Assembly: GCA_943704525.1 (NCBI GenBank)
Contig: CALSCQ010003049.1
Location: forward strand, 1-30,882
From: Pigoraptor vietnamica
Taxonomy: Eukaryota > Opisthokonta > Filasterea
Length of the DNA stretch: 30,882 bases
Direction: 5' to 3'
Below are positions 498-30,788 of the stretch, in pieces; within the stretch, counting starts at the first letter, position 1, and every line of letters begins with the position of its first letter. Both the position numbers and the translations under genes were made by a program. The notes below the pieces were generated by a model. That model ran no database searches, had not been told where the DNA came from, and saw only the letters and a list, made by a program, of their open reading frames with translations.

Positions 498-3197
498 ATG
501 GGTGCCATCAAGAAGATTTGCTGCATCGGGGCGGGTTACGTCGGCGGCCCTTCCTGCGCCGTGATTGCGCTCAAGTGCCCCGATATCCGCGTGACGGTCG
601 TCGACATTAGCAAGGAGCGCATCGCGGCGTGGAATTCCGACACACTCCCCATCTATGAGCCCGGACTGTTTGAGGTCGTGAAGGAGTGCCGTGGGCGGAA
701 TCTCTTCTTCTCGTCGGACGTTGATGCCGAGATTAAGGAAGCAGACCTCATATTTGTGTGCGTTAATACGCCCACGAAGACTTTTGGCGTCGGTAAGGGG
801 CGGGCGGCCGACCTAAAGTACATCGAGGCGGCGGCGAGGCGGATTGCCGAGGTTCGTGTGATGTTCACAGCGATTATGGGCGCCTCTGAGCTTACGCGTG
901 CATGTATTGTGGGCGAGCACGAATGCGCGCGTTGTGGTTACACGTGTACCTCTTTATGTTGGCATCGTGTGTTGATCTTATGTGTCTCTATTTCTTTTTT
1001 CCCTTCGTCAGCGTTGTGTGTGTGTGTGTGTGTGTGTGTGTGTGTGTGTGTGTGTGTGCGTGCGTGCGTGCGTGCGTGCGCGCAGGCGTGTATGTGTTTG
1101 GTTTGATACATGCTCCTAAACCCGTGTTATCCAATTGCACCAGATTGCGACGACGCGCAAGATTGTCGTCGAGAAGTCGACCGTCCCAGTGCACGCGGCC
1201 GACAGCATAGATTCGATCCTCAACGCCAACTCTGCAAACGGCATTCAGTTCGACATTCTCTCCAACCCAGAGTTCCTCGCCGAGGGCACGGCGATCAACG
1301 ACCTCATGAAGCCGGATCGCGTGCTCATTGGAGGTCACCAGACGCCTGCCGGTTTGGCCGCCGTTGCCGCGCTCTCGGAAGTGTACGAGCACTGGGTGCC
1401 AAAGTCGCAGGTCATCACGATGAACCTGTGGTCGTCGGAGCTCTCCAAGCTGGTGGGTCTGCGTCGAGCACTGTGTACGTGCACCGCACCCTGTGTACGT
1501 GCACGCCGTGTCGCTTTTCTTTCTTATGTCTTCGTTTATTTCGTCGCCCCAGTCCTTCAAGAGGCGCACCTTCCACTGTCTTCCCAGTGGCGCCAATTGA
1601 CGCACGCCTCACGCAAATACGTCGTCCCCCCCCCCTCTCTTCTCTCGTACATGCGTGCAGACGGCGAACGCGTTCCTCGCTCAGCGCATCTCGAGCATCA
1701 ATGCTATCAGCGCGGTGTGCGAGGCCACCGGCGCGGACGTGGAGGAAGTGGCACACGCCATCGGACTCGACAAGCGTATTGGGCCGTACTTTCTCAAGGC
1801 CAGCGTCGGTGGGCTGTCATCACTCGCACTGAGCATCAGTTGTCGTATGCACCCTTTTGTCCTCCCGATGATGCTTCCTTTTGGTCTTGCATTCTATCTT
1901 ACTTCCTCTTTAGTCTTGCATTCTCTCCCTTCCCTTTTATCCTTTGGCCTTGTTGTGAGGGGTTTTTGCACCTTCTATTGCTCCTCCTTCTCACTGCGTT
2001 TTGTGTGTGCGCGTTGGGGACAGGCTTTGGCGGCAGTTGCTTTCAGAAGGACATTCTCAACCTCGTGTACCTCTGTGAGTCGCTCCATCTGCCCGAGGTT
2101 GCTGAGTACTGGAAGCAGGTACTTTCCTTGTAACGTCCCAGTCTGCAATGCACGCTCGCGGTGTGCATTTTTTTTTTTCGGATGTGTTGTCGGCAATTGC
2201 GAAACTGAGTCGTATGCCTGCACGCACAACCAAAGTAGTTGTCGATGTCTCCGCGCTCGCACGTATTGGACACGTTATACGCTGCTGTTCGGTACCTTAG
2301 TGCGCTCCGCATGATTTCGCCTTCTTCTGGCGCGTCGCTTTAGGTCGTGACGATGAACGACTATCAGCGGCGTCGGTTTGCGAATCGGATCATCCGCTGC
2401 CTCTTCAACACGGTCACCGCAAAGAAGATTGGCGTGCTCGGGTTCGCGTTCAAGAAGGACACGGGCGACACTAGGTGCGTGTGTTGTGTGTGTGGTGTGT
2501 TTGTGTGCGTGTGTGCGCGTGTGCGTGTGCGAGTGCGAGGCATCGGTACGCGTGTGTGTGAGCGCGTGTGTGCGTGATTGTGTGCCGCTTATTCCTCAGT
2601 TGATTACGCTCCTTTTCGTCCGCAGGGAGTCGTCGTCCATCTACATCACGTCGTATCTCCTGGAGGAAGGCGCGCGTGTGTGCGTGTACGACCCGAAAGT
2701 GACGGTCGAACAGATGATGACGGACCTCACCGAAGTCGGCATCAATCAGATGGACAACGAGGACGGTGCGTGGCCGCTGTTTGTGTGCATGTGCGTGTGT
2801 GCGTCCTGTGTGCGGTTCTGTGCAATATGTCCCTGCGTGTGCGTCCTGTGTGCAATTTGTTGCTAACGTGCGCGCGCGTCCGTGAATTCTGTGTGTATTG
2901 TGACATGGTTCTTGCGTGCGCGGTCTGCGGGCGCTCAAACCTTTGTACGTGCGTTCTTCTTCGCGCACAGTTCGGCGCCTCTTTGAGTGCTCGGACGACC
3001 CGTACAAGGCGCTGCATGGTGCACACGCGGCTGTTGTCTGCACCGAGTGGGACGCGTTCAAGACGCTCGACTGGCAGCGCGTGTACGACTCGATGCTCAA
3101 GCCCGCGTTCATCTTCGACGGTCGCATGATTCTGAACCACAAGCGCCTGAGGGAGATCGGTTTCCAAGTCGAGGTCATCGGAAAGAAGGTTTACTGA
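498..3197 (+). CDS. UGDH: UDP-glucose 6-dehydrogenase, animal type, seven exons
   Basis: It oxidises UDP-glucose to UDP-glucuronate with two NAD+, normally in the cytosol. The exons are 498-851, 1144-1452, 1661-1808, 2024-2118, 2344-2474, 2626-2765 and 2971-3197. All introns are GT-AG and all phases match, giving 467 residues against 494 in the human enzyme. The N-terminal NAD site reads GAGYVGG near residue 10. The substrate signature [20 protein letters not shown], the catalytic Cys276 in [10 protein letters not shown], and Lys220 in SELSKL fall at the same numbers as in human [13 protein letters not shown] and CTEWD are also conserved. The ATG at 498 is chosen because homology begins right after it; the longer upstream frame lacks similarity. 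Intron 1 holds a TG microsatellite and introns 5-6 are TG-rich. The product would feed glucuronyltransferases such as the GT49 genes downstream. Identification is very secure. Confidence 0.97.
1015..1080. repeat. TG microsatellite followed by CGTG repeat in UGDH intron 1
   Basis: Twenty-two TG dinucleotides run from 1015 to 1058, then about five CGTG tetranucleotides to 1080. The tract is fully inside intron 1 of UGDH, about 60 bases before the acceptor. It creates Cys/Val-rich spurious open frames on both strands. Confidence 0.97.
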
Positions 3198-3475
3198 GGG
3201 GAGGGCCACACACCGTGTTGTGCTGGCGCCTGTTGGAGATCCGTATTTATTATGGGGCCCGTTCCGCGCGCCCCTCACTTGAATGGGTTTATTTTATGTG
3301 CAAGGCGTCGCCGTGACATCGTCGTCGGTGTCTCGGTGCGTATGCGAAGAAATTAACAGGCAGCACGCCAAGCGAAGCAATTGACCGGTGGCTGACTCAT
3401 TCCGACCTGACGCCGCGTCGACGTCATCACAACGCCGAGCCTCCGAGCCTCGGTTACTGTTCTTTTACTGCCACA
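3198..3475. other. Convergent intergenic region with a minus-strand poly(A) signal
   Basis: This 278-bp gap separates the 3' ends of UGDH (+) and the NXPE-like gene (-). A minus-strand AATAAA lies at 3293-3288, about 180 bases past the stop of the NXPE-like gene. No open frame with recognisable content is present. Confidence 0.5.
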
Positions 3476-28997: not shown

Positions 28998-30399
28998 CTT
29001 TCAATGAGAGTGATTGTTGCACCGCCGGGAAATCGGCTGCCAGCTTTCTCGATGTAGCCGGTTAGTGCGAAAACTCGGCTTTCACGGCTGCAGTTTGCGC
29101 AGTCGTCGGGGAAGCGAAAGTTCGCCGCAGACACCGACACACCCTTTCCGCACCCACACACATTGCGGGCGCTGTGAAGCGCGAACTGTGTGTTGCGCCG
29201 TGTGGGCGCACACCGTTGCTCAGCCGAGTGTGCCGCAAGAGATGTCAAGCCCTTTGAGAGGCTGTCACCGAAAATTCAAAAATTAAACTGAATTTCAGTT
29301 CAGAAATCCCCCTCAAATTTCAATTTGTCAATTCGTTTGCCGCGCCCTGAAAATGGCTTTTTGTGTCAAATTTCTGACAGGTGTTTATTATACGAAATTA
29401 AGTATGGCCCATCCTCTGGCCCGTGTAACCATTGCTTTGGATTAAATCAAGCCTATGGTAAATTTGGATCACTGAACGGTAAACCTTCAGCAACTGCGCC
29501 AGGCCCACAATGTGAACCCCTTGCCCCGTCCGAAACCCCTACTCACCTCGAGGCACCAAAAAACTGCTTCTCCTCCAGGTTCGACTTTCATTTCCAAATT
29601 TAGCAAGATTCTCGACTTTATGGCTCATGTTACCCGCAGTTCCCTCAAAACTCGGCTCAGACAACACCAGCAACCACTCAACGGCACCCAAAAGTCATTG
29701 CCCACCTCAGCGTCAGTCACGAGCCATTGCGATAGTTCGCGGCACGAGCACTCGGTTTGAGCTGTATGCGCGTGTCGACCGGTTTCGGAGTAGGCTCACT
29801 ATTAGCCGCCGGCAGCCAAGTGGCGTCTCAGTGAGCCGTGCCGACTCAGCAGTAAATCGGCAATTGAACTGAACACACTCTTTGCGGTGGCCTGCGGCTT
29901 GTGTTCTCCGGCATAACACTGTTGTTGTGGTCCTGTGTCCCGCACCCGTAGCACATGCTCCTGGCGGTTGTCGTTTCTCTGGACACTCATGGATGTCGGC
30001 GTTTCCATGGTTACGCGGCCGCGTTCGTACACCTTAGCTGACACAGTCCTGGTGTAGCCCTCTACATGGCCGATATTCGTGAACGTTACTGACAAGCGAT
30101 ATTTCAGTGCTACGCACCCCTGACACCTACTGCCCCACATACGACTTAGTAGAGCGTTTTGATCTGCCAGTGGCAGTATTGGTATGCCCTTTTTTTTTCT
30201 TCGCTCGAACAGCTCGAGCCGGGAGGACGGGGTAGGTGGTCAGCTGGGCACTTAACTGAATATTTGGCGGCGTCACTGGACAGTCACGGCAACACGCCCA
30301 GCTGGCACACTGAATCGGCCATGTACGGCCTGCGACCGCTGCAGCCGCCGCCGCCGCCGGGGCTGCATTACGGTTTTCTATGTATTGACATCATGTTCA
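28998..30399. other. Intergenic region with an AT-richer island
   Basis: About 1.4 kb upstream of the WbpA-type gene. From about 29260 to 29620 the DNA is clearly AT-richer than its surroundings (for example AATTAAACTGAATTTCAG) and contains a near-perfect 15-bp palindrome at 29286-29300. The CCGG-type words common elsewhere are scarce here. A minus-strand open frame of 112 codons at 30140-29802 (with RLSVTFTNIGHVEGYTRT) has no ATG near its start and no family that I recognise. No terminal repeats or transposon motifs were found. Confidence 0.4.
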
Positions 30400-30788
30400 T
30401 CAAAATGGCGGGAAGCTGACGTTCTTGAAGGCATACATCTCCGGGTCCAGCCCGTACTGGCGCCCCACTTCGGCGCGCATGGCCCAGTAATGTCGGCGGT
30501 TGCGTACGATCTGTTCCGTCTCCTCGACCGTCAGCCCCTATCGTGGACAACGACCGCCCCGTGTAAGTAGTGCACGGTGAAGACCTCGGGCACCGTCCAC
30601 CCATTGCGAACAGGTGCCATATGTACGCCTGCTTGTCGCAGCCCCACAGCAAATACTTCTCGTCGAAAGACGGGAGCGTCGCTGTCCTTCTCACCACGAA
30701 CTGGAATGGCTCGTAAGACGTGTGGTATGTCGATTGCAGCCACGGCTGCTTGTCTTTGCCGTAGAGCCAGCGATCATACTCGGTACAA
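30400..30788 (-). pseudogene. GT49 copy 3, last exon, frame-broken and cut by the window edge
   Basis: Reading leftward, an acceptor CTTCCCCCAG precedes 30788, in the same phase-2 position as in copies 1 and 2. CTEYDRWLYGKDKQPWLQS, SFDEKYLLWGCDKQAYIW and LFAMG follow. The usual GYRFWTVPNVF is damaged: about ten bases are missing near 30599, and WTVPEVFTVHYLH continues in another frame to a stop. A second frame change near 30531 leads to an intact tail, TVEETEQIVRNRRHYWAM to FKNVSFPPF, ending at TGA 30402-30400. The preserved tail suggests recent decay or an assembly error. Upstream exons lie outside the window. If the breaks are real the enzyme is inactive, because the segment that follows the N-K-x-x region is lost from frame. 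Confidence 0.75.

Follow-up and report, generated by a model that had tools for sequence, protein, structure and literature searches.

The genes of eukaryotic glycan pathways are normally scattered. Bacterial loci for capsules and O antigens bring together enzymes that supply nucleotide sugars, a number of glycosyltransferases and a gene resembling an acyltransferase, and a similar assortment is found on contig C1263 of a draft protist assembly (32.5 Mb in 1395 contigs); the whole of this contig, 30,882 bases, is the window considered here. We suggest, with a probability of about 0.58, that C1263 is one of several clusters in which this protist assembles genes for making a glycan that is secreted or displayed at the surface. 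No description of such eukaryotic clusters emerged from a literature search judged by titles and the starts of abstracts.

Comparisons can also be drawn with individual eukaryotic enzymes. LARGE1/LARGE2 and B4GAT1, which act in matriglycan synthesis, have in common with the GT49 proteins of the window a GT49 domain and a DxD-type motif, but in LARGE a GT8 domain precedes GT49 within a single protein, whereas the window GT49s are without GT8 and form an expanded family. Two-domain Golgi enzymes named in PMC9178029 are GT47-GT64, GT31-GT7 and GT8-GT49. Among holozoan protists, the choanoflagellate glycosyltransferases jumble and couscous indicate (PMC6322860) that surface glycans matter for development; these are single genes, and nowhere in its main text does that paper use the phrase 'gene cluster'.

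Linkage of glycan gene families across the assembly

Gene models were built by hand from the sequence and its reading frames and then scanned with Pfam, giving the 13 features listed from left to right in Table 1. An initial annotation, made from the sequence alone, had proposed a gene cluster for an acidic, fucosylated, acylated glycan, with ten of twelve loci belonging to glycan families; that tally of families is reasonable, although the intact glycan genes number only about eight. Genome-wide counts, which include the window and are all lower bounds, amount to at least 34 matches on 15 contigs for GT49, at least 17 loci on 13 contigs for PCE1 (hand-merged from 31 matches), at least 11 loci on 11 contigs for G7, at least eight loci for G4 (merged from 26 matches, two of the loci weak) and at least six for G6 (merged from 10 matches, two of the loci with stops).

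With C1263 left out (it had been chosen for its content) and neighbours of the same family collapsed, 16 of 51 units had a member of another family within 20 kb, a number reached by none of 10000 random placements of the units on 32.5 Mb, in which 2.48 ± 2.15 were expected (midpoints were typed by hand from match tables, fragments and weak loci were retained, and contig ends were ignored, which favours the null). At 5 kb the corresponding figures were 17 of 53 units against 0.68, again with no placement reaching the observed value, and at 20 kb without C269, the richest contig, 11 of 46 against 2.01 (4 of 10000 placements). The proposal of a gene cluster is thus upheld, in that unrelated families of one process are co-located beyond chance, and the clustering extends past the window. 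Six other contigs hold at least two of the families: C161 (UGDH, two PCE1, G7 and three GT2 frames, one of them also GT25), C269 (three PCE1, two G4, G6, GT49s, GT47 and GT64), C732 (PCE1, GT49 and GT10), C721 (G7, GT49 and GT64), C573 (GT49 and G4) and C155 (PCE1 and G4, with no further frame of 250 amino acids in the part read). When neighbouring frames were picked from a longer list by length and codon bias, seven of the 12 further frames on five multi-family contigs were glycan genes (GT2 twice, GT2 with GT25, GT47, GT64 twice and GT10), as were five of the 16 on single-family contigs (GT47 twice, GT64, GT2 and GT8). On C269, C721 and C390 the GT64 frames come after GT49 frames of the same orientation; they are probably additional exons of these GT49 genes and therefore do not count as independent neighbours.

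Does such linkage reflect a common product? It could instead arise if unstable stretches of the genome are the places in which families of the secretory pathway multiply and degenerate, with recombination or shared chromatin bringing together neighbours that do not serve one glycan, and we regard this as possible though rather doubtful. Broken copies do occur (PCE2, GT49c and the relic on C1263; G6 copies with stops on C162 and C1012), the families are large (PCE1 at 17 or more loci, G7 at 11 or more, GT49 on at least 15 contigs), unrelated genes are interspersed, gene order changes and most units are unclustered; but what is co-located is a set of unrelated families that includes soluble dehydrogenases, and this with same-family neighbours collapsed. 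Moreover, of the three UGDH copies found, two belong to clusters, and C1263 carries the sole complete UDP-N-acetylhexosamine (UDP-HexNAc) dehydrogenase that the searches found.

The paralogous proteins are under purifying selection: the ratio of nonsynonymous to synonymous divergence (dN/dS) is 0.20-0.41 in eight of nine pairs, the synonymous divergence being saturated in the ninth (G7 of C1263 and C721). On C1263 the 3' ends of UGDH and PCE1 face each other; on C161, by contrast, UGDH shares its strand with the nearer of the two PCE1 genes. Because gene order differs in this way and dS ranges from 0.76 to saturation in all nine pairs, recent block duplication is unlikely; repeated linkage would also be expected if a cluster of ancient origin had subsequently been duplicated.

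Table 1. Features of C1263 in left-to-right order (hand-built models)
Feature	Positions	Strand	Description	Basis or remark
UGDH	498..3197	+	UDP-glucose 6-dehydrogenase, 467 amino acids, seven exons	Pfam, PDB, GGSC
PCE1	3479..5910	-	Filamin-like and PC-esterase-like domains	N-terminal hydrophobic exon, start 5910, splice not fixed
PCE2	6341..7793	+	Broken PC-esterase-like gene, frameshifted	GDS reads GCS
G4	8392..10719	+	O-FucT-like, five exons, N-terminal hydrophobic helix, HLRxxD	Paralogues
Relic	11755..12284	-	Apparent coding relic, first read as STELLO-like, unsupported	No PF03385 match in three short pieces
G6	12697..14829	+	711 amino acids, epimerase-like domain and C-terminal part of unassigned family	Paralogues
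G7	15813..18036	-	O-FucT fold and C-terminal SUEL lectin	Hydrophobic first exon from 18036, splice not fixed
CoaE	18387..19935	+	Dephospho-CoA kinase, non-glycan	Pfam above cut-off
KDM8-like	20078..21763	-	Cupin/JmjC, non-glycan	ARM_KDM8_N and one of two Cupin_8 frames above cut-off
GT49a	22307..23610	-	LARGE-like, two exons, DAD, N-terminal hydrophobic helix, start not fixed	Pfam
GT49b	24704..26235	+	LARGE-like, two exons, DAD	Pfam Glyco_transf_49 above cut-off, E 8e-32
UDP-HexNAc dehydrogenase	27032..28997	-	UDP-HexNAc 6-dehydrogenase, bacterial type, four exons	Pfam best E 3e-41, GGHC
GT49c	30409..30790	-	C-terminal part of third GT49, frameshifted, at contig end	17.5 bits, E 0.0028

The enzymes and their relatives

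The catalytic motifs used here (GGSC, GGHC, DAD, HLRxxD and GGxGxxG/YxxxK) are taken in their customary meanings. Both UDP-sugar dehydrogenases of the initial annotation were confirmed by Pfam matches and cysteine motifs (GGSC and GGHC). UGDH has three UDPG_MGDP_dh Pfam domains above cut-off (best E 4e-63), with the catalytic cysteine in GGSC, and UGDH entries of the PDB, presumably human, match it over 464 residues (E ~3e-220); it is an animal-like UGDH. The other two copies found are at C161:2119-4950 and C1150:6013-8607. Exon DNA is 90-99% identical among the three, and intron alignments are confined to repeats and short segments, which suggests exon homogenisation or strong codon constraint.

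The UDP-HexNAc dehydrogenase, of the WbpA/WecC/TviB kind, has Cap5O as its best PDB match (E 2e-59) and scores 407 bits with NCBIfam TIGR03026 (cut-off 190), while the substrate-specific NCBIfam models for UDP-ManNAc (N-acetylmannosamine) and TviB were matched only under their cut-offs. Since it is also 43-48% identical to five recovered bacterial proteins, one might think of a bacterial capsule or O-antigen locus acquired by horizontal transfer, but this origin is scarcely credible and was rejected: the dehydrogenase model contains three introns, several other cluster genes also have introns, and genes for Golgi-type enzymes lie on both strands with no operon layout. The other cluster genes belong to families known from eukaryotes, and the flippase and polymerase families typical of capsule loci (Wzx/Wzy) are absent from the Pfam matches of the window models, no search having been made elsewhere. 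In L043, the one of five bacterial loci that was examined, the neighbours are SecA and two-component genes, with no capsule locus. A partial copy of the dehydrogenase gene on C353 (L039 2088-2560) sits beside long degenerate repeats.

Three GT49 genes had been recognised on C1263, of which GT49a (whose two frames match Glyco_transf_49 at E 1.6e-17 and 7.5e-9) and GT49b are above cut-off, whereas GT49c is broken and scores as listed in Table 1. GT49a and GT49b are 49% identical across 333 residues, and Pfam found GT49 as their only domain, with no GT8 in these or in other window genes. An alignment with the GT49 portion of LARGE1 was obtained for GT49b (E 4e-18), the only one of them compared; together with the two uronic-acid-forming dehydrogenases and their cysteine motifs, this bears out the description of the product as acidic.

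Outside the window, GT49 is found joined to GT64. A frame of 801 amino acids on C390 (C390:6179-8581) carries GT49 at residues 171-356 (114.5 bits) and GT64 at 540-780 (133 bits), both above cut-off, with LARGE1 and EXTL2 as PDB matches. The two domains also occur as adjoining frames on one strand at C390:11150-13836, C721:15491-17650 and C269:22189-24458, separated by ~0.1 kb in this second C390 pair, by one apparent intron on C721 and by a short gap on C269. The 801-residue frame is laid out like the exostosins (GT47-GT64) and similar Golgi polymerases with two domains, and GT47 and GT64 frames also occur in the sister clusters, but here GT49 takes the place of GT47. A literature search for phrases joining GT49 with GT64 found no paper (papers holding both words do exist); this would be a new pairing, for which the functional prediction is a polymer of alternating uronic acid and HexNAc.

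Over positions 15813-17390, G7 matches O-FucT (E 2.3e-9; 37.8 bits, cut-off 31.5) and SUEL lectin (E 7.7e-13), both above the Pfam cut-off, and a profile of its family detects POFUT1/2 (E 5e-4 to 2e-3); it has the O-FucT fold in common with POFUT1 and POFUT2 and differs from them in the C-terminal lectin. For G4, O-FucT is the only Pfam family, matched by four of five members at E<=1 (best 0.0036), with a score of 15.3 bits that is under the cut-off; a GxxNQ stretch is common to G4 and G7 (hhalign probability 65, E 6e-5, 92 columns). The annotation of two O-FucT-like genes is therefore clear for G7 and weak for G4. Fucosylation was overstated and is less well supported than the acidic character of the product; it can draw on these two genes and on a frame of the GT10 fucosyltransferase family in sister cluster C732, but no GT10 was found on C1263. 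Members of the O-FucT fold also use donors other than GDP-fucose.

PCE1 resembles the NXPE1, CASD1 and plant TBL O-acetyltransferases. In PMC12216134, NXPE1 is described with GDS, DxxH and an N-terminal membrane helix, all of which PCE1 also has (its exon 1 encodes a hydrophobic helix, judged by eye), but PCE1 has a filamin repeat (E 0.0024) where NXPE1 has neurexophilin, and its PC-Esterase match (E 1.2e-4, 22.6 bits) does not reach the Pfam cut-off of 27. A profile of four paralogues finds gelation factor (E 9e-21), the putative hydrolase 4h08 (E 0.014) and ESKIMO1 (E 0.05); gelation factor is, we assume, a filamin. Foldseek gave no match to the PCE1 structure model at E<=0.001, the top row being an unrelated viral protein (probability 0.33) and the next rows 4h08 (probability 1.0), several carbohydrate esterases and filamin repeats. 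PCE2 is only weakly like PCE1 (E 0.001 and 0.02 in two comparisons), matched no Pfam family, and has no DxxH in its pieces. Thus, of the two PC-esterases that were annotated one is broken, and the acyl group proposed for the glycan has in its favour a single gene with GDS and DxxH, which scores under the cut-off.

G6 had been described as a fusion of an epimerase-like protein with a glycosyltransferase. The epimerase-like half is supported, Epimerase being matched in four of four family members (best E 5e-6; 0.061 for the window member alone), but no family was found for the C-terminal half. GGxGxxG is kept, and the catalytic tyrosine position of YxxxK is phenylalanine (FxxxK) in all four paralogues. 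The copies with internal stops (C162:10442-12557 and C1012:42663-42962) are likely to be pseudogenes.

A possible pathway and the points against it

How might these genes act together? The clusters are probably reshuffled Golgi glycan genes that make uronic-acid-rich, O-acylated, deoxyhexose-decorated surface glycans; the Golgi location, donors, acceptors, common product, one variant for each cluster and fucose as the sugar are what we infer for such a system. Two soluble enzymes would make UDP-glucuronic acid (UDP-GlcA) and a UDP-HexNAc-uronic acid, and a transporter encoded elsewhere would carry the UDP-uronic acids into the Golgi. Membrane-anchored GT49 enzymes would then add glucuronic acid from UDP-GlcA, as LARGE does, and O-FucT-fold enzymes fucose or another deoxyhexose; the lectin domain of G7 may hold the acceptor, PCE1 (filamin/PC-esterase-like) would transfer an acyl, probably acetyl, group, and G6 might add or edit a further sugar. 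Since the families have been copied and rearranged between clusters, the glycan made may vary from one cluster to the next. In keeping with membrane anchoring, the N-terminal helices of G4, G7, GT49a and PCE2 are hydrophobic (best 19-residue hydropathy 2.2-2.4).

More speculatively, and in our view improbably, the whole might be a capsule-like system, in which reshuffled clusters sharing a stock of families (PCE1, O-FucT-SUEL, GT49, G4, G6, GT2, GT47, GT64 and GT10) build different acidic coats, some of them polymerised by GT49-GT64 enzymes into alternating uronic acid/HexNAc chains, as exostosins do.

Several observations weigh against the idea that C1263 is one of several glycan clusters. 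Three of its 13 features are broken, and the genes for CoaE and the KDM8-like protein break up the series. The identifications of G4 and of the C-terminal half of G6 are weak, the structure models of PCE1 and G6 are poor (predicted local distance difference test scores of 43 and 38), and the helix of GT49b, at 1.84, scores no higher than the presumably soluble dehydrogenases (1.75 and 1.89). A common promoter element is unsupported: TCACGTG occurs 13 times in the window against 8.3 expected, a number matched by 6 of 100 shuffles, and CACGTG has a density of 0.78 per kb against 0.86 in other stretches. IMS (Y-family-type) polymerase frames lie inside C269, the largest glycan cluster (L028:4544-7165), and both further frames scanned on C573 match no family. 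The scattering that had been named at the outset as counting against a cluster is half borne out inside this genome, since, of the 51 units beyond the window, 35 lack a neighbour from another family within 20 kb, and the neighbours of the C1150 UGDH copy are non-glycan in all three frames scanned.

If C1263 does belong to such a set of clusters, the position of a gene would hint at which genes make which glycan, and eukaryotes would have an equivalent of capsule loci. The nature of the host adds to this. Cadherin searches gave 47 matches on two contigs (50 candidates scored), which suggests a relative of animals; a genome search for light-harvesting proteins found no match, and one for eEF1A found no clear eEF1A, the best match to its domain presumably being Hbs1/eRF3-like. 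The host is thus taken to be non-photosynthetic and probably holozoan, perhaps a choanoflagellate, although cadherins are also met with elsewhere: a genome paper on Pythium ultimum uses the word 43 times. In a relative of animals, the GT49/GT47/GT64 sets would bear on how polymers with alternating units, heparan sulfate and matriglycan among them, originated.

Contig quality and remaining observations

The state of the assembly (a draft of 1395 contigs), the poly-G end of C1263 and its frameshifts might raise the suspicion of a contaminating or misjoined contig, but this is highly improbable, as each main family has paralogues on other contigs and the guanine-plus-cytosine content is steady at 0.53-0.63 over positions 1-30000. 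A viral origin was also rejected, four viral-contig scans, each for two short peptide patterns only, having found no relative; a comparison of five proteins with PHROGs gave one weak epimerase match, for a single protein, a G6 paralogue.

The STELLO identity of the relic, which was based on a motif, is unsupported: PF03385 is not matched in its three short pieces, nor in the genome, where the same search was as silent as in 14 of 14 control genomes. No RNA gene in the window reached a gathering score. The run of G closes the contig at 30860-30882, next to the broken GT49c, and is possibly a sequencing artefact. On C573, ~3 kb (L031 1-3000) are open in all six frames and are probably a long simple repeat array. 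Finally, we draw attention to a frame on C1150 (L024:1590-2969) with a bacterial-type periplasmic binding domain, Peripla_BP_2, on a eukaryotic contig.

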